A stretch of 26,389 bases of DNA from a virus (IMGVR_UViG_3300025626_000113:1-26389), one strand, 5' to 3'; numbered from the stretch's first letter, positions 4,791 through 26,093 are shown. Notes: generated by a model not told the origin, from the sequence alone. Translations and numbers: made by a program.

Positions 4791-6233
4791 ATGGCTTTAA
4801 CCACAGGCATCGGGAATTTAATGCCTTCGGCAACGAAAGGATCATTATTCCAAAACAACTACATTACAGACTTTGATTTTACAAAGCAATTTTTACCAGA
4901 CGTATACGAAAAAGAAGCTGAGATTTACGGTAACCGTTCTATCTCTTCTTTCTTACGTATGGTGTCTGCTGAAATGCCATCTACTTCTGACGAAATTCGT
5001 TGGGTAGAACAAGGGCGTTTACACACGCGTTATGACAACGTTGCAATTTCAACTAATGCATTTACGGTAACATTTAGTGCTAATCCTGATGGAGGTGCTC
5101 ACGCAGCTTCACTTGCTCCAAACCTTAGAGTTGGACAAACTATCATGGTTCAAGGATTAACTTCTGCAGGTGTTCATACAGGACCTGTTCAAAAAGGTGT
5201 TGTAACTGTCGCTGGAGCAGCTGCTGCAGGTGATACAGGAACATTTACAGCTGTATGTTATAATGCTGCTAACTGGGCTGCTGTTACTGGAGCTACATCT
5301 TTTGCTAAAGCAACTGTTTTAGTTTACGGTTCTGAATTTGCAAAAGGATCAGCTGGTATGGCTGGATCTGTTGATGCAGATTACTCTTCTTACACTAACA
5401 AACCTATCATCTTAAAAGACAACTACGCTATCAGCGGTTCTGACACAGCTCAAATTGGATGGATTGAAGTTGAAGGCGATGGTGGTAAATCAGGATACTT
5501 ATGGTACTTAAAGTCTGAGCACGAAACTCGTCAAAGATTTGAAGATTACCTAGAGATGTCTATGGTTGAATCTGTTAAAAAAGCGGCTGCTTCTACTTTA
5601 GGTGCTGGCTATTCTGGATCTGAAGGTTTCTTCGCTGCTCTTGAAGCACGTGGGAATGTTTACACTGATCTTGCTACTGACCTTAAGGGTGGTGGAACTC
5701 CAACATTAGCTGGATTCGACGTTGTTCTTAAGCAATTAGACAAGAATGGTGCAATTGAAGAAAACATGATCTACTCTAACAGAGATCTTTCTTTAGCAAT
5801 TGATGATTCTTTAGCTGCTCAAAATTCTTACGGAGCTGGTGGTACTTCTTATGGGGTATTCAACAATGAAGAAGATATGGCAATCAACTTAGGCTTCACA
5901 GGTTTCCGTAGAGGATCTTACGATTTCTACAAAACTGACTGGAAATACCTAAACGATCATGCTACAAGAGGTGGTTTCGGAGATGTTGAAGGAGCTATAA
6001 TTCCTGCAGGAACGTCTACAGTATATGATCAAGACCTTGGTAAAAACATCAAGCGTCCATTCTTACACGTACGTTACCGTTCTTCTGAGACTGATGATAG
6101 AAAACTAAAAACTTGGTTAACTGGATCTGTTGGTGGTGCTTACACTTCTGACGTTGACGAAATGCGAGTTAACTTTTTATCTGAAAGAGCTCTTATTACA
6201 CAAGGAGCAAACAACTTCTTCTTATTGAAGTAG
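4791..6233 (+). CDS. Major capsid protein (HK97-fold expected)
   Basis: This 480-residue protein is the probable major capsid subunit. It follows the scaffold gene and has the N-terminal pattern of capsid proteins in crAss-like and related Bacteroidota podoviruses (MALTTGIGNLMP, FLPDVYEKEAEIYGNRSI, SFLRMVSAEMPSTSDEIRWV). Residues ~85-185 are rich in Ala, Gly, Thr and Val with little helix and look like a beta-rich insertion domain or surface decoration. The sequence then returns to a classic capsid core, with the helix HETRQRFEDYLEMSMVESVKKAA-like segment near residues 240-265. Codon use is unlike the neighbours: of 19 Arg codons about 11 are CGT, 7 AGA and 1 CGA, while the flanking genes favour AGA. 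TTC, TAC and AAC are frequent. That pattern fits a very highly expressed gene. It ends with tandem TAG TAG stops and is followed by a strong terminator. Confidence 0.87.
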   Translation: MALTTGIGNLMPSATKGSLFQNNYITDFDFTKQFLPDVYEKEAEIYGNRSISSFLRMVSAEMPSTSDEIRWVEQGRLHTRYDNVAISTNAFTVTFSANPDGGAHAASLAPNLRVGQTIMVQGLTSAGVHTGPVQKGVVTVAGAAAAGDTGTFTAVCYNAANWAAVTGATSFAKATVLVYGSEFAKGSAGMAGSVDADYSSYTNKPIILKDNYAISGSDTAQIGWIEVEGDGGKSGYLWYLKSEHETRQRFEDYLEMSMVESVKKAAASTLGAGYSGSEGFFAALEARGNVYTDLATDLKGGGTPTLAGFDVVLKQLDKNGAIEENMIYSNRDLSLAIDDSLAAQNSYGAGGTSYGVFNNEEDMAINLGFTGFRRGSYDFYKTDWKYLNDHATRGGFGDVEGAIIPAGTSTVYDQDLGKNIKRPFLHVRYRSSETDDRKLKTWLTGSVGGAYTSDVDEMRVNFLSERALITQGANNFFLLK

Positions 6234-7080: not shown

Positions 7081-7788
7081 ATGGTAAGTATAGACAATGT
7101 TTACAAAACAGTATTAACAATACTAAACAAAGAAAAACGCGGGTATATAACACCTAGAGAGTTTAACGACTATGCTAGACAAGCCCAGCTTGAAATATTT
7201 GAATCCTATTTTTCTGGAGTTAATAGATCTTTGTCTAACAACTCAGATTACTCTGACACTAAGAGAAATGTTGAAGAAAAGATTTCTTTTTTAGAAAATG
7301 AGGCAACTATAGCAACAGGCTCTTTTACTAACGCCTCAGGGGCAACAACAAGCGACTATTTTGCATATCCTAGTGATTTTTACCGTTTAAGTGTAGTTAG
7401 TACAACTACTGGGGACCAATTTATTGAAGAAATATCAAATAAAAAATTCTTATTTGTAAATAAATCTCCTTTTACAAAACCTTCGATAACAAGCCCGGTA
7501 TACCTAACTCATGAAAATGGATTAGTAATAAAGCCAACAGGTATACCTAATGTAAGTGTTAGTTACGTTAGAAAACCATCTGAGCCTCAATGGGTAGGTG
7601 GTACTGCTAATGGACAGATTATAGTAAATACTTCTGGTGTTGGATTTAAAAACTTTGAGTTACATCCTTCAGAAGAAACTGAATTAGTAGCTAAAATACT
7701 TACTTTTGCTGGAGTTACATTAAGAGCGCCTGACTTAGTACAAGCTACGGCACAGAAAGAATCACAAATAATACAATCTGAACAATAA
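7081..7788 (+). CDS. Putative head-tail connector (ring/adaptor) protein 1
   Basis: This 235-residue protein is the first of two consecutive small genes between capsid and tail-propeller genes, the position of connector or ring proteins in crAss-like and related podoviruses. The N-terminal helix pair (VYKTVLTILNKEKRGYITP, FNDYARQAQLEIFESYF) is the kind of helical bundle that docks on the portal. The middle (about 75-180) is beta-rich, with YFAYPSDFYRL and VYLTHENGLVIKPTG. The end is an amphipathic helix (about 200-230) with KILTFAGVTLRAPDLVQAT. Its stop codon overlaps the next start by one base (TAATG), which implies translational coupling and matched amounts of the two proteins. The connector role is inferred from position and general pattern. 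Confidence 0.6.
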   Translation: MVSIDNVYKTVLTILNKEKRGYITPREFNDYARQAQLEIFESYFSGVNRSLSNNSDYSDTKRNVEEKISFLENEATIATGSFTNASGATTSDYFAYPSDFYRLSVVSTTTGDQFIEEISNKKFLFVNKSPFTKPSITSPVYLTHENGLVIKPTGIPNVSVSYVRKPSEPQWVGGTANGQIIVNTSGVGFKNFELHPSEETELVAKILTFAGVTLRAPDLVQATAQKESQIIQSEQ

Positions 7789-8822: not shown

Positions 8823-11294
8823 ATGGCAGAAAGTAAAAGAACAGGGATCAAGGGATCTATGAATAAAGATCTTGACGATAGACTAGTACCCGAAGGGTTT
8901 TTTAGAGACGCTTTAAATGTAAGTGTTGGACACTCGGAGGGCTCTGACGTAGGGGCTATTGAAAATGTGAGAGGTAATGCGGTTCCAATTGCTCAAACTA
9001 GTATAACAGGTACAGTAATAGGATCTACAGTTGATGACGAAACAGGTAATATATACTGGTTTGTTGTTTCTGCAAATCAAGATGCAATATACGAATATAA
9101 TGCTACCACAAATGCAGTCTCTACTGTATTGATAGATAGCAGAGCCTTCACGGGGGATGGCGACGACGGAGGCGATGGTGGCGGTGGCGGTAGTGTTGAA
9201 ACATGGACTGTAACTGGAACAATAAATGGTACAGAAGTAGCAGAACCTACTGTAGGCGGATACGAACAATACTCAATTGATATAAGCACTGTTGCAACAT
9301 CTACAAGCAGTACAGGAAGTATAAGAAGTGTTAATACTTTTTTATACGAAGAAATAGATAGTGCTGGTGCTGGTGGTACTGCATTGGCCTCTCAGCCAAC
9401 AGGTTTTGGGTCATCATCTAGTTCTTCAGTTATCTCCACTCCTAGCTCTAACAGACCAGCTAGTGCAGCTAGTAGATATTTCAGAGTAACATTGACAGAT
9501 AGTGGAATACCTGCATCTACAGCAATTTTATATGTTACCGTTGCAATTTCTGCACAAACAGTTGCTCTTGACGTGTCATTTTCATTACCATCAAGCTTCA
9601 CTAGTGGAGACACTATAACATTAAACTCAACACCAATTGGAGGAGTTCCAGGCTATACTTATGCTTGGAGTGGACCTAATGGGTTTTCATCAACTTCTCA
9701 GAACACTTCGGTATCAAATGCAGGTTCTGCTAACGCAGGAACATATACAATATCAGTAACTGATTCAAACTCAAATAGTACATCCCAATCCAGAACTAAC
9801 TCAATGACATCTTTTGGTTACCCTTCAGTTACAACAGTAATTGTTAGTCAATCTGGTAACCAAGGAGAATTAACAATGAACGGTTTCGTAAATAACGGAG
9901 GCGCTAACGGTGGAGTTGTTACAGCCAGAGGATTCTATTATTTAAAAAATATAACAGGTACAGCTTACGCTGCATCAACAGTTATTGCAAATGGAACTAA
10001 GAATACAGAACCAAGCGGTACCGGAAACGGGGCATATTCTATATTACAGTCAGGCTTAGATGCAGGCTCTACATATGATTGTGTTGCTTGGGCTAGTAAT
10101 GGCTCTTTAGAGGACCAAGATGTGGTTAAATCGAATACTACACAACCCGCAGGTACTCAAACTATTGTTGCAAACCCAACATCTTTAGGTGATAAACCTG
10201 CTGCAAGCGCAAGTTATCAAGTTGATTTAACATTAACAAATCTACCTAATTCACTTATTACTCCAACTATAACTTATGTAACAGGGGGTAGTGGATGGAT
10301 TGCAAGTGTAACAAGAAGGTCAGGAACTGATACATATGACATTACATTTGGTACTATGACTGCTCCAACCGCAACATCTCCTACGTTTAGGGTTGCACAA
10401 GTTAGGTTCACTAACCCAACAACGGGTATAAACACGGATGTAGCATGTTCACAAACATTAGGAGCAGCTATATCTATAACCGCTACTAATGGCCTAACTA
10501 GCTTTAATAAATTAGGTGGCTTTAACGGGTTTCCGGTAACAGTTGCGTTTGATCCTGCTGGTACAGTTCAAGGCCAGTGGAGATTCAAAGATTCACTACC
10601 TAATTGGATACACCTTGGATCTTCTGCTACTGGTGTTCACACACACAATGCATCTTATTTAGGAGATTTTAACGCACAATCATTCTTTTTTGAGTATAAT
10701 AATTCAGGTGGAGCTAGAAACCATACATTTGATGTAAGAATAATGGATGAATATGAAGATGATTTAACTGCTCCTGGAGTTGCGGTTAGAGATACTATAA
10801 CTATAAGCCAAGATTTGAGTGTGCCAACTACCATGTACGAATATAATGGTGTGGCTAATACAAAAACTGGCATTACCACTGTTAAAAGTAATGGTAGTTT
10901 CCATACAGCTTCTTTTTCTGGTGGACAAGGAGGTAATACAAACGATAATGTTCTTAGAATAACAGTTACACCGTTAGCCCCTAATCAAGCAGAAATAGCT
11001 ACTGTTAAGTATTACATTACTCAATCAACAGGAGGTTACAACACTTCTGCATTTCCTAATGCTTGGGATCCTTGGTTTAATGTAAACGGTTCTATGGTTA
11101 GTGGAGTTGGTTCTGCCAACGCTATAACGTTAGGTACTACTGGGGGCGTGTATAATTTAGCTATAACATCTAGAGGTGCTAGTCCGTTTTCAAATGGAAG
11201 TTATTCACAGATTATAAGATCTATAACTGTTATTGCTACCACAGACGGAGGAACAACTTCCTCTAAGACGTTTTCACTCGGACAAACATTCTAA
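8823..11294 (+). CDS. N-terminal piece of tail stabilisation/propeller protein fused to Ig/Fn3/BACON-like domain array
   Basis: Residues 1 to ~107 contain GIKGSMNKDLDDRLVPEGFF, RDALNVSVGHSEGSDVGAIE and NIYWFVVSANQDAIYEYN. This is the start of the large propeller-type stabilisation/tail protein of crAss-like and related Bacteroidota phages. A Gly/Asp linker (residues 111-124) follows, then roughly six beta domains: a Ser/Thr-rich domain (~126-240); a PKD/Ig-like domain (~248-328, with PGYTYAWSGPNGF); an Fn3-like domain (~331-440, with VVTARGFYY and GLDAGSTYDCVAWASNG); and three segments ending in a BACON-like strand with a terminal Gln (about 447-545, 548-664 and 671-823, ending CSQT, ISQD and LGQTF). 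Such domains usually bind surface glycans or cells, so this is probably a virion surface adhesin. The remainder of the propeller appears to be encoded by the next gene, 17 bases downstream. The domain calls are by pattern only. Confidence 0.72.
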   Translation: MAESKRTGIKGSMNKDLDDRLVPEGFFRDALNVSVGHSEGSDVGAIENVRGNAVPIAQTSITGTVIGSTVDDETGNIYWFVVSANQDAIYEYNATTNAVSTVLIDSRAFTGDGDDGGDGGGGGSVETWTVTGTINGTEVAEPTVGGYEQYSIDISTVATSTSSTGSIRSVNTFLYEEIDSAGAGGTALASQPTGFGSSSSSSVISTPSSNRPASAASRYFRVTLTDSGIPASTAILYVTVAISAQTVALDVSFSLPSSFTSGDTITLNSTPIGGVPGYTYAWSGPNGFSSTSQNTSVSNAGSANAGTYTISVTDSNSNSTSQSRTNSMTSFGYPSVTTVIVSQSGNQGELTMNGFVNNGGANGGVVTARGFYYLKNITGTAYAASTVIANGTKNTEPSGTGNGAYSILQSGLDAGSTYDCVAWASNGSLEDQDVVKSNTTQPAGTQTIVANPTSLGDKPAASASYQVDLTLTNLPNSLITPTITYVTGGSGWIASVTRRSGTDTYDITFGTMTAPTATSPTFRVAQVRFTNPTTGINTDVACSQTLGAAISITATNGLTSFNKLGGFNGFPVTVAFDPAGTVQGQWRFKDSLPNWIHLGSSATGVHTHNASYLGDFNAQSFFFEYNNSGGARNHTFDVRIMDEYEDDLTAPGVAVRDTITISQDLSVPTTMYEYNGVANTKTGITTVKSNGSFHTASFSGGQGGNTNDNVLRITVTPLAPNQAEIATVKYYITQSTGGYNTSAFPNAWDPWFNVNGSMVSGVGSANAITLGTTGGVYNLAITSRGASPFSNGSYSQIIRSITVIATTDGGTTSSKTFSLGQTF
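9153..9194 (+). other. GC-rich Gly/Asp linker-coding seam
   Basis: This 42-base stretch encodes GDGDDGGDGGGGGS and is strikingly GC-rich against its AT-rich surroundings. It lies exactly where propeller-like sequence stops and the Ig-like array begins, so it reads as a flexible hinge. It may mark the edge of an acquired domain block. Confidence 0.65.
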
Positions 11295-11311
11295 GAAATA
11301 AATAAATAAAT
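11295..11311 (+). promoter_or_regulatory. AAAT-repeat translation leader
   Basis: The 17-base gap before the start at 11312 is made of tandem AAAT units with no Shine-Dalgarno box. Bacteroidota and their phages initiate on unstructured A-rich leaders, so this likely serves as the initiation signal and lets the second half of the split tail protein be translated independently. Confidence 0.6.
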
Positions 11312-14300
11312 ATGGCAAGCGAAACACTAAATTTAAACGTTTCCAATCTTATAACAGGAGTTAACATCATTGATGGGATGCTTCTGTTTACAGATAACCG
11401 TAATGAACCTAGGAAAATAAATATTGCTAGGTTTAGAGACGAGGGTGTCCACACTTCCGGCACCACACAAATATACGGTAGAGATTTTGAAACTTTAGAT
11501 ATATCTTTAATTAAAAAGCATCCGTCTACAGCAGCAACTTTTGCAATAGCTTCTACAGACCTTGAAGACTCTGTTTTTAAAAACGTATTTCCAAGGTTTT
11601 CTTATAGATGGAAATACAATGATAATGAGTATTCTCCTTTTGCCCCTTTTACAGAGGCTATATATCAAGGAAAAGCTTTAGATTTAAAAGAAGTTTTTGA
11701 GACGGGTGAAATTGCAGCTGTTCAAAACGTTGTAGATTCAGTTACAATAACTGTACCCACAACTCAGAAAGATGTTATTGAGATTGATTTGCTATACACA
11801 GAATCAATATCTTCAACAGTATATATTGCCGAGACTAAAAAGTTATTAGCGAGTGACATTACAGCGGGTACTGTTAGTTTTACAGTTAACACAAGAAACT
11901 TTTTCAAAGCTGTATCAGGAAGTCAATTAACACGTATATTTGACAAAGTCCCTAGAAAAGCTAAAGCTCAAGATTTAACTGGTAATAGAGTAATTTACGG
12001 CAATTACTTAGAAAACTATGACAATACAGCGGTTGATGGTAGTGTATCTTATGTAAGTGGAGCTACTGTTGCGTCTAAAATGGGCGTTCGTTCAAATTCA
12101 AAATATACAGTTGGAGTTGCTTTTTCAGACCAAGCAGGAAGACTAGGTGATTTAATAGACTTAGGTGGTGTAGAAACACCATTCTCACCTACGGGTCCTT
12201 TAAGTCTAACATGTCAGCTTTCTGGAACTGTGCCCTCATGGGCTACCAACTATAGATACTATATAAAAGATACTACAGGCCAAAGACATAATATAAAGTC
12301 ATACGCGGCTTTTGATGAAGAAGTTGGTGGTACAACATCCTCAGAAGTGTGGATAGCAATACAATCCGAAGATGTAAATAAAGTACAAGAAGGCGATTTT
12401 ATATATCATAAAGCTCAACATAGAACAGACTCTTTTGTAGGTATTCCAGGACAAGCAAATGCTAGTTACGGAGATACAGTACCAACAGATGGACTAGGAG
12501 CAATACAGCCTTACAACAAGCGCAAAGTTATTGAAATAAAAGCCGAAGCGCCTGATTCAGTAAAATATGGATTGGTAAATAGAAACAGATTAGCAATAAA
12601 ACAAACTTGGACTACTCATACTTTTCGGTCACTAGATATTACTAACGGCAATTATGTTACAGGCCATACACCTACTATAAGTGATGACTACATAGCTATT
12701 GAGGATCCGGAAGTAGCAACTGCTATAACAGAAGAATTAGAAAATAGTAAAATTGTATATATAAGCCTAGGTACTAATACCTCTCATAAGACTAGAATCA
12801 CATCTGTATCAGCAGTAGATATTGGAGGGGTTGGAACTAGCGGTTCGTTAATACAATTAGCAAATAAACTAAGCGCAGATGCAGTTAGTGGTATAAACTC
12901 TACTTCAGTTATAAAAATATATTCAGGAGAATTAAGTAATGAACAATTAAGAGTTTTAGATGGTAAGTTTTTTATAAAAACCACTAGATACAACATTGGA
13001 TTTGTTGCGGGCTCTGGAAGTATAATTACAACCGACCCAAATACAGCTGTATCTTTTCCTCATTTAATAGACGACACAGCATTTACAAATGCGGGAACAT
13101 CAATGGATTTGTTTACAGTAGAAGCAAATGCTGATTCTAACTTAGATTTATTCTGGGAAGCTTCAAACGCTTTTGCAGTTTCTGCAACAGACGCTTTAGA
13201 TTTTGGACAATTAAATGTTATAGATTGGAGCAATTGTATTTCATTTGCGCGTAACGGAACGAGTAGGCCTATTTTAGATATTGAAATGAGTTATGATAGG
13301 TTTAATAGTATACCTGTTGGAAAGGGGGTTCGAGTCACAACTCCTACAGAAAATGAAGGTATTGCAAGATATCAGTCAAATCTTATATTTTCTGGTATAA
13401 TGAATCCTGGTACTTCTTTAAATAAATTAAATCAATTTATTGAAGCCGATGGTATTACCAAGGATATAAATCCAAAATATGGATCTATACAAAAAATATA
13501 TTCATCTGATAATTTAACAGTTTTTTGTGAAGATAGAATTGTTAAAGTATTAGCAAATAAAGACGCACTATATAATGCCGACGAAAGCGCAAACTTAATA
13601 GCCACATCAAATGTTTTAGGACAAGTGGTTGCTTATAAAGGATTATATGGTATTGCTAAAAATCCAGAATCTTTTGCAGCCTATGGTAATGATCAATTCT
13701 TTTCAGACAGGATACGTGGTGCGGTTTTAAAGCTAACCCCTGCTAATGGGCAAATTATTGAAATAAGTAAATCTGGTATGCGTGATTTCTTTAGAGATAG
13801 GCTACCATCCGCTACAAATATTTTAGGATCGTTTGATATACATTCTAACAAGTACATGCTAACAATTAAAGGCTATAATGCTACTTTAGGGGATATAGAT
13901 GTAATTAACACTGTAGATACAGAACTAGACCAGCCTTCAGCAAATATGACCCTAGGCTACTATGCTAATGGTCAAACACAAGGTTGGACTAGTAGGTATT
14001 CTTTTATACCGGATAGTGGTGTGAGTGTTGATGGTAAGTATTATACCTTTAAAGACGGTAAAATATGGAGGCATCATGCTTCTGCGGCATCTCATAATAA
14101 TTTTTATGGTATTCAGTACAATTCACAAGTTGAGTTTATATTTAATGACAATCCAACACTGAGTAATGAATGGACTGCATTGAATTATGAAGGAACTGAA
14201 GGTTGGGAAGTAGTGCATGTTAAAGCGGATCAGGAAAATAATATAACACTAAATGCTAAAATATTAGACAATAAGTGGTTTGTTAAAGAAGGTAAATACT

Positions 14301-14512
14301 TTGCTCCTATAACAGGAGAGGAAAATATATATACTTTAGTGTTTGCAGGTGTTCCTAATTCAGAAGGAGAGTATCCTACTCAAGATTCTGGCGTTACAAG
14401 ACCCGTAGCGGGTGTTAAGGGCTTCTTTAACAAGGTTAAAATGAAGAATGATAATACAACTAGGGAAGAGCTGTTTGCTGTCAGTGCGGAGTATTATGTT
14501 AGTGATAGATAA
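11312..14512 (+). CDS. Tail stabilisation/hub protein, C-terminal propeller and beta-rich part
   Basis: This 1066-residue protein carries the main body of the large tail stabilisation (tubular B-like) protein seen in crAss-like and related Bacteroidota podoviruses. Recognisable segments in order are ITGVNIIDGMLLFTDNRNEP (~13-32), FPRFSYRWKYNDNEYSPFAP (~93-112), RIFDKVPRKAKAQDLTGNRV (~210-230), YSSDNLTVFCEDRIVKVLANKD (~730-750, shown here only as a landmark) and SFAAYGNDQFFSDRIRGAVL (~788-808). Its N-terminus begins where the propeller of intact homologues would continue after the first ~105 residues of the upstream gene. It should form the tail hub below the connector ring. It has its own start, preceded by the leader AAATAAATAAATAAAT, and several stops lie in the 17-base gap. 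It is therefore a separately translated protein, not a readthrough product. It ends with tandem TAA TAA stops. Confidence 0.75.
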   Translation: MASETLNLNVSNLITGVNIIDGMLLFTDNRNEPRKINIARFRDEGVHTSGTTQIYGRDFETLDISLIKKHPSTAATFAIASTDLEDSVFKNVFPRFSYRWKYNDNEYSPFAPFTEAIYQGKALDLKEVFETGEIAAVQNVVDSVTITVPTTQKDVIEIDLLYTESISSTVYIAETKKLLASDITAGTVSFTVNTRNFFKAVSGSQLTRIFDKVPRKAKAQDLTGNRVIYGNYLENYDNTAVDGSVSYVSGATVASKMGVRSNSKYTVGVAFSDQAGRLGDLIDLGGVETPFSPTGPLSLTCQLSGTVPSWATNYRYYIKDTTGQRHNIKSYAAFDEEVGGTTSSEVWIAIQSEDVNKVQEGDFIYHKAQHRTDSFVGIPGQANASYGDTVPTDGLGAIQPYNKRKVIEIKAEAPDSVKYGLVNRNRLAIKQTWTTHTFRSLDITNGNYVTGHTPTISDDYIAIEDPEVATAITEELENSKIVYISLGTNTSHKTRITSVSAVDIGGVGTSGSLIQLANKLSADAVSGINSTSVIKIYSGELSNEQLRVLDGKFFIKTTRYNIGFVAGSGSIITTDPNTAVSFPHLIDDTAFTNAGTSMDLFTVEANADSNLDLFWEASNAFAVSATDALDFGQLNVIDWSNCISFARNGTSRPILDIEMSYDRFNSIPVGKGVRVTTPTENEGIARYQSNLIFSGIMNPGTSLNKLNQFIEADGITKDINPKYGSIQKIYSSDNLTVFCEDRIVKVLANKDALYNADESANLIATSNVLGQVVAYKGLYGIAKNPESFAAYGNDQFFSDRIRGAVLKLTPANGQIIEISKSGMRDFFRDRLPSATNILGSFDIHSNKYMLTIKGYNATLGDIDVINTVDTELDQPSANMTLGYYANGQTQGWTSRYSFIPDSGVSVDGKYYTFKDGKIWRHHASAASHNNFYGIQYNSQVEFIFNDNPTLSNEWTALNYEGTEGWEVVHVKADQENNITLNAKILDNKWFVKEGKYFAPITGEENIYTLVFAGVPNSEGEYPTQDSGVTRPVAGVKGFFNKVKMKNDNTTREELFAVSAEYYVSDR

Positions 14513-18293: not shown

Positions 18294-21200
18294 ATGAACG
18301 AAGAATTACAAGGAATCATAGATAGAATGCGTGCTGCAAATGAACCGGAGGACGTTATAAATGCGTTTATAGAAGAATACAATTTAGCTTTCGGTGAGCA
18401 ACAAAACGTTGTTGAAGAATCTGTTCCTAATGAAGAGCCAGTTAGCGGAGAACCAGTTAGTCCAAAATCTGCTTCTTTCACTTTCGAAGAAGGTGAATTA
18501 GAAGGGTTTGAACAAAGAATGCGCGAAGGCGGGGAGTCTGATGCTTTCATTAACAAGTTCAAAATGGACTATAGCCTCATAAACCCAAATGCGGGAAAGT
18601 CAACAACCACAGAGATGGACGCGACTGTGGATGCAAACGAAGTGTCCGGTACGGAATTTCCATCGGTAGATGGTTCTTTGGTGGAAGTAGAAGTACCTAA
18701 TAACCTAAAACCAATACCTGATAGTGAAAACACCGAGAGCGGGGAACTTGGCTTCTGGGATAAGGTAGATATACTAGCTGACGGACCAGGTTATAATGCA
18801 GCGGGAGGTATAGCAGCTACAAAGATTATGGCAAAAACCGTTAGACAATTTGGTAATATGTTTGACGCTGCTAAAATCGAAGTTAAAAGATCTGGTGGTA
18901 CTGCTGAAACAAATGACTTTATGGATTTAACAGGGAAGTCTTTTAATATAACAGACCCTGGTAATATAGCAACAATAGATGCCTGGCAGGCTGAAATAGA
19001 AATGCAAGCTAACTTAGGACAAGCTGAAGGCTCTGAAAAGTTTTTTAAACATCAAGAAAAACTCCAAGAGAGTGGTGAAACAGAAGGGAAAGCATTCTTT
19101 AAATCCATGATGAAACACCCTGGCTTGTTACCCGAAGTTATTGTAGGATCATTGGCAGGTATGGGTGCCACCGTGTTCGAAGAACCGTTAAAAGTAATAG
19201 GATCTACTGTTGCAGGTGGGGTGAGTAATGCAGCAATAGCAGGTGCTTACGGTGCAGCGACCACTGGTGGAGTTGCAGCAATTCCCGCGGCAATAGCAGG
19301 TTTTGTTAGAGGTGCAGGAATGGGCTTTAGAGCATCCACTATGTACCAAATGGAAAAAACAATGACCTTTAATGAAATATTTTTAGAGGCTATGGAGGAA
19401 AGAAACTTAGATCCTCAGGTTGATGAAGATATATTTAATATTTTATCAGATCCAGAAGCTATTCAACAAATGAAAAACAAAGCAGCGGCAGGTGGTTTAG
19501 CTTTAGCTGCTATAGAAACAATGTTTGGTAGAGTAGGAGGTCTAGTTGGTAAAAATGTAAACAAAGCTGTAAGAAAAAGTAGAGTTTTAGGAGCAGTAGC
19601 GGAGACTGCATTAGAGGGTACTGGTGGTGCATTAGGTGAATATGGAAAAGGAAAAGCAACGGGTCGAGATGCTACTTTTACAGATAAGGCACTTGAGGCA
19701 GTATCCGTAGCTCCAATGGGAGGTGTCAATGTCGCAAAAAACGTCTTTGGTTCACTTGCTGAATATAAGATTAATGGAAAAACACTAGAAAGTAAGAAAG
19801 ATATAGTTGATTTAATTGAAAATGGTACAGATGCTGAAATTTTAGAGGCTAACATTGAAGTTGAAAACGACTCGGATCTAACAAAATTATTAGATAAAAG
19901 AGTAAAAACTGCTAAAAAAGCTAACAAAAAAACTTACCTATATAACGGCCAAAAATTTGATTCACCTGAAGAAATTAATAATTTCTTAGATACAGCAACA
20001 GATGAGCAAATTATGGGGGTTGATATTTCTATAATAAATGATAATGAATTAAGTGAAAAATATTCAAGTATACTTAATAGAATTATAAAAAGTAAAAAAA
20101 GTCAAAAACCTACAAAGAAAAAACCAAAAAGTAAAGTTAAGCCTAGCTCTGTTCAAACTAAAGTAGAGCCTCGTATTATAACCGAAGAAAAAACAAAAAT
20201 AGATACTCAAATAGTTAGACTTGAATTGGAACTTCAAAAGGCTATTGATGAAGGTGGAGAAACAGCGGGAGTTGCTATAAAGAAAAATATTGAAAACTTA
20301 GTTGAAAAGAAAAAAAATATAGAAGACTATATTTCTCTTCAGGTTGATGAACTCAGCGAAACGGAAGCTCGTGGATTAGTAGACTTAGATAATGAAGTTG
20401 CTTTATACCAATCTATAATAGATGATCCTAGTTCTACACCTGGAGCTATAGCAGCAGCTAAAAATCAAATAGCTAAAGCTAAAGAAGCACAGGTTGAGGC
20501 ATTCATGAATCCAGATTCAAAAGACATGTCCAGTGTTGAACCTAAAAAACAAAAGAATATTGAGCTTTCTAGAAAGACTCAAGAAGCTTATGAGAAAGGT
20601 GATACTGATGGTATCATAGAAGCTCAAGGAGGTATGATTTCTTCTATAGCAACATCTTTATGGTCTAGAATACCAGCTGACAAGCAGGTAGGTACTTATG
20701 ACGGCTTTAAAGCAGCATTAATATCAGCTAAAGGTGGCTTATTGGATCTTATTGGAACCTACAGACCAGAAACGGGAGTACCATTAGCCGCTTGGATTGG
20801 CAATGGACAAACTGGATTAAAAGTTAGAGCTAACCGTATAGTAAAAGAATTAACTAAACAGGATATAGAAGTTAGTACGGATTCAACGGAAGCATTAAAC
20901 TCTTTTTCTAGTAATGAAATTGATACTGATAATATTAACTTAGGTCCTAAATATAACTCACAAAGATTAGGTTTAGGTGTTAATTTATTAAATGATTCAG
21001 CCAAGAGTGTTGAGCTAGGCCAAGTTGCAATTGAACAAGCATTAGCAGATGCGGATGCTAAAGCAGACGCTAAAGGTAAACCATTATCTCAAAAACAAAG
21101 ACAAACTGTTTCTGAAAAAGCTTTTGATAAATTATTTAAAGATCAATATGCCCAAAAAGTTAAAGACAAAATGGGTAAAAAATTGAATTTAAAGAATTAC

Positions 21201-24200
21201 ATTAAAAATAATGTATCTACTTTAAAAAGAATTGTTCTTTCTAATACTAATTTTGCAAAAGGTAAAGGCTTAACAAAAGATTGGAATAAATACCCACCTT
21301 CAGATCAAGAATTTCAAAATTTTTATGAAGGAACTGATACTGATAATTCCCAAACTATTAGTGATAGAAAAGCAGCGTTAGCGGAAGCTGTGTCAAAGCA
21401 AATAGCTAAAGATGCTAAAGATAATTATTTTGAAGGTAAAGAAGCTGATCGTAATAAGTTTAGCATTGAGAATGACATCTCTTTTTCAACAGATAAAAAA
21501 ATAGTAGAAGATGTTTCAGAATTTATACAAGGTATAAAAAATATAGCTCGTGCTGAAGTAGAAAACGCTGAGGCTTTAACTCCTTATGAAGACGTGGCTA
21601 ATTTTAATAAATTTATTGAAAAATTTAAAGGCTTTATAAAGCATGATAATACTAACAAGCTAGACAGAAATAACCCGGACGACGTTAAAAAAATACAGGA
21701 AGAATTATTAAAAGCGGCAGAAGATGGTAAAATACACCCATTACTGCTTATTATATCTAAATTTGGAAATTTTGGGAGAGCTGAAGTTAAAGGTTATGTA
21801 GAAAATGGGGTTTTTATTAAAAGACCTTCAAAAGTGTCAATAGATGACACTAAAAACTATGAAACTTATTACGAACTATCAGGACCTGTAGAGGGTTCTG
21901 TTGGCAATTACCTTAAAAGACCTGAATCTACACAAGAAGCAAAAATTATAGCTGAGAAATTTAAAGATTCATTTTTACCTGGAAGAGGCGGTATTTTTTA
22001 CGGTGTTAAAGATCCTAAATACGTTAATTTATTAAAAATAGCCACGGAAAATTATAACGGTATAGATATACCTGGGTTTAAAATAACAGATAAAGAAGGT
22101 TCAAAAAGACTTAGCTTTGGCACTAAATCAAATAATATTTTCAAAAAAAATGGTATTGAAATAGATCCAAAAGCATTTGAAGAGGTTACTGAAAAATTTA
22201 AAGAAACGGCAAAAAACAACCAGTTACTAGTTAAAGAACTTACTAAAGCTGTAAGTGCTCTAATTAAAGGTGGTGGGAATCCTTATACATTTGGATCTCT
22301 TTTACATAATTCTTACAGAGCAACCTCTGGGGCTATTAAAGCTTCTTTTGAATTTAAAGTCTACGAAGGAGGAGTTTTAGAATATGGTACTGGTACTAAA
22401 TTTGGTAAATTTAATGCTAAAGGTGGAGTGCAAAATATTTTCAGAGAAGAACATAGTCCTCCTGTTAAAGTATTTGGTAGTGAACTTCTTAAAGCAGCAT
22501 TAACCATAGACTCACCGTCGGGTATAGATGAACGAGTAAACGACATGTACAAGGACGCTTTTCAAAGCATAATATCCTTAAAGTCTGACCAGGCTATTAA
22601 TGATACAGGCTACGGAGCTGCAATAGCAAAAGGTGGCAGAGTCGGTGAAAATTCTGGTATTATTAGATTAGCGGAAGCTGGAGTTAGTTTAAAAAAATTA
22701 TTTTATTCAAACGGTAAAAATGTACACAACTTTTTTGCAGAACAAATGGATATATCAATGCAGGTTGAAAATGATAACGTTGCGTCCAATGAGAAGATAA
22801 TCGATCATTTAAGTAACAAAGTCGAACGAGACTTACAGGGAGCTTTGCAAGTTGAAGAAAGTAATAACTCAAATCCAGAATTAAATGTTTCTGAAAAAAT
22901 AGAAGCCTTTATAGACGTAATAAAAAGCGCATATAAAGGGTCTTTTGAAATTGTTAATACTAAAGAAGACGCGGTTGCCTACTTAGTATCAAAGGGTATG
23001 GATCCTAAAAAAGCCCAGGAAACCGTTGACCGTGCAAAAGGATTTTACATTTCACGGACTGATGGGCTTATGTATGTAAATCCAGAATTGGGTGGACTTG
23101 ACACGTTGTTGCATGAAACAACCCATGCATGGACTAGAATGATTTCAGAAGTTGATCCTGAATTGTTTGATGCTATATATGAAAAATTAAAAGGCCATCC
23201 TTTATATGCTGAGGCGGTTGCAAGAATGGAAACGATTAATGAATATAAAAACATTGAACCTGGTTCTTTTAAATATAAAGATGAAATTTTAGCCTACATA
23301 TTAGGTGAAGAAGGTGGATCTATGTACGACCTATTTCCTGGTGATATAAAAGCAAAAAACTTAATTGATAAATTTTTTCAATATGTAGCAGAAGCTTTAG
23401 GCTTTGACCCTTCAACAAAAGATTTTGCGAGCCTATCTATTGAGCAAGTTGTTAAACTAGCTATAAAAGATATTTCGGAAGGAAATCCAGCTTCAAACTT
23501 TAATAAACTCAAAAACAAAGCAGAAGGCAAAAGTTGGTTTGCAAAAACGGAAGATCAAATTAGTCCAAGTTCTAAAGCTGCAAAAAGTAGTACAGTGAGA
23601 GCTTTTAACGCTTTAAAATTAGCTTATAGAGAAAGTGGTGATTTGGTTGATGCTATAATTAAAAGTTATGATTCTGTAAAAAATGAAATGACTTTACAGG
23701 AGTGGGCTAAGATTGTTGCTAAAAACACTAAAGAACCTGTACCTGGTAAATCTAACGATTTATTAATAGGTAAAAGTAAAATTAAAAAAGCCGAAAAGAT
23801 TTCAGAGGCAAGTGTAGACGAAAATAAAGAAAGCGAGTTAAGTGAAAGTGAAGGTAAAAAAATGGCTGATAAATTAAGAGCTATTATATATGGTAAAACA
23901 GGTAAACCCTCAAAATGGTTTATCCCACCTAATGCTGAAGATTTTAAAGGTTTGCTATACACATTCCTACCAGGAGGCAAAGCTGGAGTCGCAGCTAAAA
24001 AGTGGTTAACAGATACTTTATTAAAGCCTTATTCAAATGCTATTGCTGCACTTGATAGTGAAGTTTTAAACAAATCAAACGCTTGGAAAACGCTTTCTAA
24101 AGGTTTTGATTTTAATATAAAAATTGCAGGTACACCCTATACTTTAGGTGATGCAATTAAAATATATAATGGTTTAAAAAACGGTCAAGATCCTAATATA

Positions 24201-26093
24201 GCTAAAAAGAAACATTTAGATGCTCTTATACACGCTGTAGAAAGCGATAGTAAGATTTTAAATTTTGCTAATGAGGTTAACAAATCGTTTCCTATCGATA
24301 TTACTAGCGGATGGCAAAACAGAAGCTTTGCAAAAGAAATATTCGATTCTATTAATGATGGATCTAGAAAAAGACACTTAGCTTCTTTTAGTGCTAATGT
24401 TGATGCAATGTTTACAGACGCTACATTAGATCTTATAGCAGATAAATATGGTATTAAATATAAGCAAGCTTTAGTTGGTACGCTAGCTAGAATGAAGTCA
24501 GGAAGGAATAGAGTGGGGACAGATGCTAGTGCTAATTCTTATATGAATTGGATTAACCGCGCCGTTGGAACTACTATGTTTTTAAATACACGTTCTGCGT
24601 TTCTACAAACTTTATCATCATTAAACTTTATAAACAAGCCAGGTAATAACTTATTCCAAGCAATGAGAGCTTTTGCTAATCAAGCACAATGGAAGGCAGA
24701 TTATAAAGTTTTATGGAATAGTGATTATTTAGTTAATAGAAGAGATGGTGCTAAATTTGATGTATTAGCTGACGAAATGTCTCAAGGTGATGTTAAAGGT
24801 ATTGAAAAGCTTCTTAAGGCTGGATTTTTACCAACAAGATATGCAGATAGTTTTGCTATTGCTATGGGAGGGGCAGCTTTTTATAGAAACAGAGTTAACA
24901 TGCTTATTAAAGATGGGATGAGTAAAGCTGACGCCGAAGCTCAAGCAATGGTAGATTGGAGAGAAGCTGCTGAAGAATCTCAACAATCTTCTGATCCTTC
25001 TAAAATATCTGAAATACAATCATCATCTATAGGTAAATTGATATATGCTTTTGCAAATACACCATTTCAATATGCTAGATTAACCAAAAGAAAATTGCAA
25101 GATTTAACTTCTGGTAGATCAGCTGCTGAAGGTAACGTTCAAAAAGACATTCAATCTTTATTGTATTACTCTATATTACAATCCGTAATGTTTAATGCTT
25201 TACAAAATGGACTAGTAGCTTTAACAATGTCAGATGATCCTAAGGATGATGAATTGAAAGACGAAAAGTATGCACAAATATTAGAGCGTACTTTAACATC
25301 TTACGCAAAATCTATTGGGAATCCTGGTGCTGTGGCAGCAACCTTATACGCTATGTTAAAAGAAGGGTATATGCAACAGACAGGTGAGCGTAGGAAAGAC
25401 GCTAATGTTTTTGCATTAACTGCTACTTCGATTTCACCACCATTGAACTCTAAGCTCAAAGATTTATCTGCAGCTTACAGAGCATATAATAAAATTGATG
25501 AAAAAGATTTACTAACCCCATCTTTAGATAGTGATGCTTTAACAATGGCAGGAGAAGTATCTTCTTTTGTTGGAGTTCCTTTAGATAGAGTCGTTAAAAA
25601 AACAAGACATTTAGCGGCTATAACTAACGAAGAAGTTGAACTATGGCAAAAAGTGTGGATGCTAGCTGGTTGGAGTGAATGGGAATTAGGTGTTGGAAGA
25701 GATTCTAAAAAGAAAAATAAACCCAAGAAGTCTAAAAAAAGAAAAGGATTAAAAAGCAATAGATTGACTTCACCTAATCGTAGGCTAGAAGACGGGGTTG
25801 ATGGAGTTGCAAACAAAGACGGCACTATAGAACTAGCGCCGGGCTTAGATCCTGTAGAAAAGGAAATCACCCTAGCTCACGAGCGACAGCATGTAGAAGA
25901 CATGGATGCTGGTATATTAGACTATGACAATGATTTTGTATATTGGAAGAATAAAAAATACCGTAGAAAAAACGGTAAAATAATCTATAATGGCAGATCT
26001 GTTATAGAGGGAAGCAAAAGTTTACCTTGGGAGAAAAAAGCATATGATGCTGAACCTTCCAAGAGTGCGGTAAAACGAAAGTTATACGAATAA
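18294..26093 (+). CDS. Giant polyvalent internal/ejection protein with two zincin (HExxH) motifs
   Basis: This 2599-residue protein is the probable largest cargo protein, delivered into the cell with the DNA. In order: an acidic N-terminus (~1-150); a Gly/Ala-rich hydrophobic region (~272-345) and a second (~396-420) that may insert into membrane; two copies of a ~46-residue repeat (~491-536 and ~548-594); a Lys-rich linker; a sigma-region-2-like patch (~802-865); and a metallopeptidase motif LLHETTHAW (His1607, Glu1608, His1611) with a likely third ligand in DEILAY (Glu1664). A long helical C-terminal part carries the widespread phage pattern KLIYAFANTPFQYAR, ending in a hydrophobic helix (SVMFNALQNGLVALTM). 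After a Lys-rich hinge (~2474-2490) comes a second motif, LAHERQHVEDM (His2529, Glu2530, His2533), followed by PWEKKAYDAE (Glu2580/Glu2587). Such assemblies are known as large polyvalent proteins. No DxDxD RNA-polymerase motif was found. Confidence 0.7.
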   Translation: MNEELQGIIDRMRAANEPEDVINAFIEEYNLAFGEQQNVVEESVPNEEPVSGEPVSPKSASFTFEEGELEGFEQRMREGGESDAFINKFKMDYSLINPNAGKSTTTEMDATVDANEVSGTEFPSVDGSLVEVEVPNNLKPIPDSENTESGELGFWDKVDILADGPGYNAAGGIAATKIMAKTVRQFGNMFDAAKIEVKRSGGTAETNDFMDLTGKSFNITDPGNIATIDAWQAEIEMQANLGQAEGSEKFFKHQEKLQESGETEGKAFFKSMMKHPGLLPEVIVGSLAGMGATVFEEPLKVIGSTVAGGVSNAAIAGAYGAATTGGVAAIPAAIAGFVRGAGMGFRASTMYQMEKTMTFNEIFLEAMEERNLDPQVDEDIFNILSDPEAIQQMKNKAAAGGLALAAIETMFGRVGGLVGKNVNKAVRKSRVLGAVAETALEGTGGALGEYGKGKATGRDATFTDKALEAVSVAPMGGVNVAKNVFGSLAEYKINGKTLESKKDIVDLIENGTDAEILEANIEVENDSDLTKLLDKRVKTAKKANKKTYLYNGQKFDSPEEINNFLDTATDEQIMGVDISIINDNELSEKYSSILNRIIKSKKSQKPTKKKPKSKVKPSSVQTKVEPRIITEEKTKIDTQIVRLELELQKAIDEGGETAGVAIKKNIENLVEKKKNIEDYISLQVDELSETEARGLVDLDNEVALYQSIIDDPSSTPGAIAAAKNQIAKAKEAQVEAFMNPDSKDMSSVEPKKQKNIELSRKTQEAYEKGDTDGIIEAQGGMISSIATSLWSRIPADKQVGTYDGFKAALISAKGGLLDLIGTYRPETGVPLAAWIGNGQTGLKVRANRIVKELTKQDIEVSTDSTEALNSFSSNEIDTDNINLGPKYNSQRLGLGVNLLNDSAKSVELGQVAIEQALADADAKADAKGKPLSQKQRQTVSEKAFDKLFKDQYAQKVKDKMGKKLNLKNYIKNNVSTLKRIVLSNTNFAKGKGLTKDWNKYPPSDQEFQNFYEGTDTDNSQTISDRKAALAEAVSKQIAKDAKDNYFEGKEADRNKFSIENDISFSTDKKIVEDVSEFIQGIKNIARAEVENAEALTPYEDVANFNKFIEKFKGFIKHDNTNKLDRNNPDDVKKIQEELLKAAEDGKIHPLLLIISKFGNFGRAEVKGYVENGVFIKRPSKVSIDDTKNYETYYELSGPVEGSVGNYLKRPESTQEAKIIAEKFKDSFLPGRGGIFYGVKDPKYVNLLKIATENYNGIDIPGFKITDKEGSKRLSFGTKSNNIFKKNGIEIDPKAFEEVTEKFKETAKNNQLLVKELTKAVSALIKGGGNPYTFGSLLHNSYRATSGAIKASFEFKVYEGGVLEYGTGTKFGKFNAKGGVQNIFREEHSPPVKVFGSELLKAALTIDSPSGIDERVNDMYKDAFQSIISLKSDQAINDTGYGAAIAKGGRVGENSGIIRLAEAGVSLKKLFYSNGKNVHNFFAEQMDISMQVENDNVASNEKIIDHLSNKVERDLQGALQVEESNNSNPELNVSEKIEAFIDVIKSAYKGSFEIVNTKEDAVAYLVSKGMDPKKAQETVDRAKGFYISRTDGLMYVNPELGGLDTLLHETTHAWTRMISEVDPELFDAIYEKLKGHPLYAEAVARMETINEYKNIEPGSFKYKDEILAYILGEEGGSMYDLFPGDIKAKNLIDKFFQYVAEALGFDPSTKDFASLSIEQVVKLAIKDISEGNPASNFNKLKNKAEGKSWFAKTEDQISPSSKAAKSSTVRAFNALKLAYRESGDLVDAIIKSYDSVKNEMTLQEWAKIVAKNTKEPVPGKSNDLLIGKSKIKKAEKISEASVDENKESELSESEGKKMADKLRAIIYGKTGKPSKWFIPPNAEDFKGLLYTFLPGGKAGVAAKKWLTDTLLKPYSNAIAALDSEVLNKSNAWKTLSKGFDFNIKIAGTPYTLGDAIKIYNGLKNGQDPNIAKKKHLDALIHAVESDSKILNFANEVNKSFPIDITSGWQNRSFAKEIFDSINDGSRKRHLASFSANVDAMFTDATLDLIADKYGIKYKQALVGTLARMKSGRNRVGTDASANSYMNWINRAVGTTMFLNTRSAFLQTLSSLNFINKPGNNLFQAMRAFANQAQWKADYKVLWNSDYLVNRRDGAKFDVLADEMSQGDVKGIEKLLKAGFLPTRYADSFAIAMGGAAFYRNRVNMLIKDGMSKADAEAQAMVDWREAAEESQQSSDPSKISEIQSSSIGKLIYAFANTPFQYARLTKRKLQDLTSGRSAAEGNVQKDIQSLLYYSILQSVMFNALQNGLVALTMSDDPKDDELKDEKYAQILERTLTSYAKSIGNPGAVAATLYAMLKEGYMQQTGERRKDANVFALTATSISPPLNSKLKDLSAAYRAYNKIDEKDLLTPSLDSDALTMAGEVSSFVGVPLDRVVKKTRHLAAITNEEVELWQKVWMLAGWSEWELGVGRDSKKKNKPKKSKKRKGLKSNRLTSPNRRLEDGVDGVANKDGTIELAPGLDPVEKEITLAHERQHVEDMDAGILDYDNDFVYWKNKKYRRKNGKIIYNGRSVIEGSKSLPWEKKAYDAEPSKSAVKRKLYE
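19764..20075 (+). repeat. Two tandem copies of a ~46-residue domain inside the giant protein
   Basis: Copy 1 is encoded at about 19764-19901 and copy 2 at about 19935-20075. They share a YxxNGxxxxS start, the middle pattern xxI--(L/F)(I/L)(E/D)-(G/A)TD(A/E)(E/Q)I and an end resembling (N/D)I-(V/I)x(N/D)(D/N)xxL. The DNA is diverged, so this is an old duplication. A lysine-rich linker follows each copy. Confidence 0.65.

Follow-up and report, generated by a model that had tools for sequence, protein, structure and literature searches.

The window, that is the whole analysed stretch of viral DNA with a length of 26,389 nucleotides, carries two consecutive open reading frames on the plus strand, ORF A (8823-11294, 823 aa, stop codon at 11292-11294) and ORF B (11312-14512, 1066 aa). 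They are located in different reading frames and are separated by 17 A+T-rich bases (GAAATAAATAAATAAAT, 11295-11311), in which no Shine-Dalgarno-like sequence was seen by eye. Coordinates, lengths and gap, as read from the sequence, agree with those given in an earlier note on this DNA. The first 108 residues of ORF A (8823-9146) represent the N-terminal segment of a phage muzzle, the protein by which the tail tip is closed, with an N-terminal strand region and one propeller blade. This segment is followed by a Gly/Asp-rich linker recognised by its sequence (FTGDGDDGGDGGGGGS, residues 109-124, 9147-9194) and by an array of adhesin-like β-domains that extends to the end of the protein (residues 125-823, 9195-11291). 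ORF B encodes the remainder of the muzzle from blade 2 onward, including IG1, the remaining propeller, the distal domains and the C-terminal domain. What the earlier note had regarded as a leader belonging to ORF B itself is not a true leader, as it amounts to no more than the residues MASET ahead of the conserved sequence. The next propeller segment (S2, LNLNVSNLITGVNIIDGMLLFTDN..., 11327-11548), which adjoins the break on the downstream side in intact relatives, is connected by a loop of 13 residues (11549-11587) to segment S3 (FPRFSYRWKYND..., 11588-12052), the start of the region corresponding to IG1 of the phiCrAss001 muzzle gp44. The loop is unbroken in the window and marks the position of a second break in sister phages with a three-chain muzzle, in which S2 forms the head of its own chain and S3 that of the third chain. 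Residues 928-1001 of ORF B (14093-14314) matched crAss_MUZ_C (Pfam PF25729; E 1.4e-8, 35.5 bits, cut-off 27).

Within the inserted part of ORF A, which comprises about 715 residues and starts with the Gly/Asp-rich linker, one domain was recognised by profile: residues 247-327 matched the Hoc-like phrog_2973 (E 2.1e-7), and residues 259-322 matched Ig_2 with an E-value of 1.9e-4, below the Pfam cut-off. The other domains of the array were assigned by motif. The earlier description of this part as about 700 residues of Ig/Fn3/BACON-like domains was therefore correct with regard to its length and its Ig-like character, but no match to BACON (Pfam PF13004) occurred in the window at E-values up to 0.1, so that the BACON part of the description reflects motif resemblance. 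In two of the three-chain relatives (L029 and L183), fn3 was found above cut-off in chain 2. Searches of Pfam and PHROG profiles revealed no domain that could be confidently assigned to receptor or glycan binding. A match of the array to the Aureispira grappling-hook protein (PDB, E 4e-15) was rejected as a sign of kinship, as it consisted of many weak stretches and appeared to be of a generic repetitive Ig-like kind. Elsewhere in the window, a 2599-residue ORF (18294-26093) had no Pfam match; weak matches to PHROG profiles were confined to the region near the C-terminus and included one to a metallo-protease family (E 0.0055).

Two reading frames encoding one muzzle protein

A single PHROG profile covered both ORFs in consecutive order. 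On phrog_14478 (1474 positions), residues 7-107 of ORF A aligned to positions 4-105 (E 2.3e-21) and ORF B from residue 18 to position 130 onward (E 5e-81), and ORF B, with PF25729 above the Pfam cut-off, also possesses the muzzle C-terminal domain. In gp97 of Cellulophaga phage phi38:1, a single ORF of 1324 aa, residues 1-108 of ORF A aligned to residues 1-109 and residues 6-368 of ORF B to residues 112-476, leaving the two segments only two residues apart. The same arrangement was observed in the Flavobacterium elemo phages, the Tenacibaculum phage Gundel_1 and the Manatee Spring phage MW202828, with a junction of about 3 to 30 residues. These four phage sets (phi38:1 included) have a structural gene order similar to that of the window, and their muzzles are about 27-42% identical to it segment by segment; residues 1-108 of ORF A shared 27-53% identity with intact muzzles. 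Unlike the window, all four produce the muzzle from single ORFs of 1324-1551 aa. The proposal of the earlier note that the start of ORF A and ORF B are consecutive parts of one protein was thus confirmed by the common profile and by the neighbouring positions in phi38:1, and the suggested alignment to intact homologues placed the two segments side by side instead of apart. ORF A 1-108 and ORF B correspond to successive stretches of a single crassvirus-type muzzle (nozzle or "stabilisation") protein, and the usual single-polypeptide state of this protein is absent in the window.

Position of the break and predicted structure

In a sequence alignment with phiCrAss001 gp44, residues 1-108 of ORF A corresponded to about gp44 residues 1-109, placing the break at about residues 109-112. 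The gp44 muzzle (7qok/7qol) is a seven-bladed propeller with IG1 located between blades 2 and 3 and IG2 in blade 3 (PMC10172136). The AlphaFold model of ORF B had a mean pLDDT of 60, with values of about 80 or higher across much of residues 10-330, and residues 419-596 were poorly modelled. Its best fold match in the PDB was gp44 (7qol_P), with a Foldseek E-value of 5.3e-26 and a VIA Z-score of 16.6 (501 residues at an rmsd of 5.1, chain range 107-1215), and in the structure alignment residue 1 of ORF B fell on gp44 residue 107. Sequence and structure alignments together position the break at gp44 residues 107-112. Direct searches of solved structures with the B sequence and the B profile returned no match, and the N-terminal profile returned a weak, co-linear one to gp44 residues 4-67 (E 0.33); the mapping onto gp44 therefore rests on the gp44 sequence alignment together with the fold match. 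The B model alone also matched other propellers, six-bladed designs included, over about 200 residues.

The model of ORF A had a mean pLDDT of 33, and values within the array were too low for a fold assignment. The only well-predicted part of the N-terminus was a unit of four antiparallel strands (residues 64-71, 76-82, 86-93 and 98-106; block pLDDT about 58-76), which has the size of one propeller blade. The blades of the T7 gp12 propeller likewise consist of four antiparallel strands (PMC6702177). The unit at residues 64-106 thus has the make-up of a blade, indicating that ORF A comprises an N-terminal strand region plus one blade and ORF B the rest of the protein. The split propeller postulated earlier is supported by the adjacency of both parts in intact homologues, by the placement of the B model on gp44 from residue 107 and by the recurrence of the split in independent contigs.

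By its crAss_MUZ_C domain and its predicted fold, the muzzle in the window belongs to the same family as gp44. However, unlike the single-chain gp44, it is interrupted at a blade boundary, where one chain stops and the next one begins, and a long array is located at the break. The T7 nozzle gp12 and the P22 hub gp10, whose alignment to the B model starts at gp10 residue 75-76, resemble the window muzzle in functional position and propeller core, but both are single chains without adhesin arrays.

A clean and old break common to one clade

A viral contig collection was scanned for muzzle segments, along with one bacterial-genome scan and phage records, yielding at least 315 loci unique over the third segment, a large sample but no census. 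The conserved-block pattern was derived from an N-terminal alignment of six sequences, as a version with nine gave no usable pattern. Among the matches listed, the A/B site was located within one ORF in 302 of the 311 unique loci with both flanks, which agrees with the earlier view that a single ORF is the normal state; in most of these single-ORF loci the flanking segments were separated by 1-22 residues. The survey of relatives that had been suggested identified nine broken loci among the 311 listed (the window, L002, L003, L029, L179, L182, L183, L204 and L235), and in a maximum-likelihood tree of four conserved segments all nine belonged to one clade with a bootstrap of 100. A further member of this clade, L181, had its first chain just outside the stretch that was counted initially; its chain 1 only looks short because the assembled sequence contains a stretch of N at this place. 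Each muzzle segment was present once per record searched (records of up to 53 kb, incomplete genomes), although an additional intact muzzle in the missing parts is conceivable.

The clade consists of uncultured phages related to phages of Flavobacteriia and falls into two sister groups. The window and the near-identical contigs L002 and L003 have a two-chain muzzle. L029, L179, L181, L182, L183, L204 and L235 have a three-chain muzzle with a second clean break between S2 and S3, which corresponds to the propeller/IG1 boundary in gp44 numbering, and L236, a partial contig of a metagenome-assembled genome (MAG), has a third chain like that of the three-chain phages. The simplest history would be a break at site 1 in the common ancestor, with site 2 being broken in addition on the branch that led to the three-chain phages. 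An ORF of 69-74 aa occupies the interval between chains 1 and 2 in six of the seven three-chain phages (L029, at 4989-5213, L181, L182, L183, L204 and L235) and is missing from L179 and the window. Tail genes of this phage type are carried by L235 (QQUU01000095.1), a contig binned as a Bacteroidetes MAG, and by L236 (PBPJ01000015.1), binned as a Woesearchaeota MAG; the latter is probably a mis-binned phage contig.

Other candidates for split muzzles were not counted as cases of this kind. That of cr108_1 turned out to be a single ORF of 2031 residues. In L013, L081, L292/L293, L314, L330, L343 and L384, the muzzle frame is interrupted after the third conserved segment and ahead of the fourth, mostly by overlapping or abutting frames, which may be due to sequencing error, a frameshift or an intron. 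One of these loci, L013 (8518-12431), is Maribacter phage Panino, in which the muzzle frame breaks at this position.

The starts of the separate chains were conserved within the clade. Chain 1 began with MA[EQ][ST]KR in all members in which the start was read, chain 2 with M[AGP]S, to which an LIT motif is added some ten residues later, and chain 3 carried the start motif K.PFE..FPY.SYRW. In split pairs, the identity of the N segment (S1) was about 6 points above the regression on S3 obtained for single-ORF muzzles, indicating no relaxation of this segment. The window and L002 were identical throughout residues 1-108 of ORF A. The arrays diverged far more than the blades carrying them: L029 and L183 shared 99.1% identity in the blade of chain 1 and 69.4% in its array, L029 and L181 90.9% and 44.3%, respectively, in chain 2. 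Blades of the window and of the sister group were 49-51% identical, and the window array gave no significant match to the sister-group arrays (best E 0.016-0.7). Thus, the clean break is an old and derived character common to a clade, and the N-terminal half is under the constraint expected of an intact protein.

As the data are metagenomic, an assembly error was considered, as was a decaying gene. Against the former, two contigs from other samples showed the same layout at 98-99% identity, and seven divergent contigs carried the break, one of which (L235) came from a different collection. The organisation thus recurs in independent contigs and collections and is not an assembly error. Decay is at odds with dN/dS values between the window and L002 of about 0.45 for the array and about 0.2 for ORF B, both based on few changes, and neither explanation is credible. 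Rejoining of the segments after transcription or translation, by an intron, an intein, a frameshift or bypass, was considered in view of the many introns and inteins in crass-like phages of other groups (PMC7886860). However, no Rfam match was found in the window and no intein or endonuclease domain in the Pfam and PHROG searches, the array is in frame with the start of ORF A and has its own stop at the end, and the start of ORF B is conserved in the clade. In addition, the frame of ORF B is closed upstream by a stop at 11303-11305. This stop is located downstream of that of ORF A, so that a frameshift at the end of ORF A cannot reach ORF B, and the earlier statement that readthrough cannot restore the fusion holds. 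Rejoining is therefore very improbable, and artefact, intron and readthrough are overall excluded or very unlikely.

Insertion sites and the proposed assembly of chains with adhesin-like arms

Length variation of muzzles by insertions is known, and those in gp44 are located in its IG2 and crass domains (PMC10172136). Among the single-ORF relatives listed, inserts also occurred at the two break sites. At site 1, one group carried an insert of about 100 residues and others inserts of 75-384 residues, and at site 2 inserts of about 100-170 residues were common. Two loci, L124 (9973-12162) and L227, possessed an insert of 730 residues at site 2 within an unbroken muzzle ORF, for which no Pfam match was found. 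Since both sites accept inserts in unbroken ORFs, both are insert-tolerant loops. The split lineage is one step further, as the chain is ended after the insert. Hence, of the novel route of domain acquisition proposed in the earlier note, the clean chain break is new, but the insertion at site 1 is not unique to these phages, given the single-ORF inserts of 75-384 aa.

A difference in domain content was also observed in another tail protein. The window encodes a ring-type structural protein (phrog_14543, 235 aa) at 7081-7788, and the corresponding protein in L002 (2228-3478) and L003 contains an extra, beta-rich-looking domain of about 181 residues, with the insert point at about 7398/7401 of the window. 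As these contigs are 98-99% identical to the window near this gene, this represents a polymorphism in domain presence, and the domain gain appears to be a related, recent event.

We propose that the A and B halves arose when the muzzle gene was interrupted at an inter-blade loop of the propeller. The chains would be products of separate translation from a common gene block, and in each muzzle subunit they would together form a single propeller. ORF A would supply the N-terminal strand and the first blade, and all other blades would come from ORF B, as would the IG, distal and C-terminal domains. The T7 gp12 propeller is closed by its N-terminal strand (PMC6702177), and by analogy the N-terminal strand of ORF A may act as the 'velcro' strand that closes the propeller. 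The Gly/Asp-rich linker would allow the array of about 700 residues to hang from the blade edge as a flexible host-interaction arm, so that the tail tip would be surrounded by about six such arms. In the sister phages, the same event at the next blade boundary would have led to subunits that are composed of three chains and equipped with two arms.

Such co-assembly of the separate chains into one propeller is very probable. Alternatively, ORF B might close its own propeller without the blade of ORF A, which would then be a separate decoration protein with the old blade kept as an anchor. The matches of the B model to other propellers such as six-bladed designs and the Hoc-like domain in ORF A fit this possibility. 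However, the N segment is still constrained as in an intact protein, chain 2 of the three-chain phages is also a retained and correctly placed segment, and the hexamer would have to tolerate a shrunken propeller, although in T7 the strongest contacts are made via the propeller (PMC6702177). A separate decoration protein is therefore unlikely, and we favour assembly of both chains into one propeller.

With regard to the arrays, a host-interaction arm with a role in binding appears somewhat more plausible than other functions. The array might also serve as a spacer extending the reach of the tail, a reading that is limited to the function of the array and partly coincides with the assembly proposed above. 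It would be in line with the lack of a recognised binding domain in the array (Pfam, PHROG) and with the ability of BACON-type Ig-like domains to act as linkers (PMC6949934). In contrast, the arrays diverge rapidly on conserved blades and their similarity is no longer recognisable across the deepest split, which is the pattern of host-interaction modules, and a spacer without specific receptor binding is thus possible but rather doubtful. Ig-like β-domain arrays for which a host-binding role has been proposed also occur in the tandem-repeat BACON tail proteins of crAss phages and in Hoc-like decoration proteins (PMC6949934). Those arrays reside on separate fibre-like or decoration genes, whereas the array in the window is grafted onto, and ends, a piece of the gatekeeper protein itself.

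Taken together, the results suggest a DNA-gating propeller that is built from two or three separate chains with breaks at blade boundaries. Every broken chain would carry a replaceable adhesin arm at its end, and host-interaction modules at the tail gate would be gained and swapped through the termination of chains instead of insertions in frame. We estimate the probability of this interpretation at roughly 70%. A search of the open-access literature, which did not extend to subscription journals and preprints, yielded no muzzle or nozzle that is split. Muzzles and Ig-like arrays are both known; in that literature, no muzzle was found that consists of several chains divided at blade boundaries, with each piece bearing an arm. 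If the interpretation is correct, up to twelve arms would surround the tail tip in the three-chain phages. A natural and evolutionarily stable break in a propeller suggests that such a protein can be assembled from pieces with its function kept, and it makes natural split sites available for studies of propeller assembly. As the breaks carry fast-changing arms, they offer a testable route by which phages may gain host-binding modules at a gate that is opened by contact.
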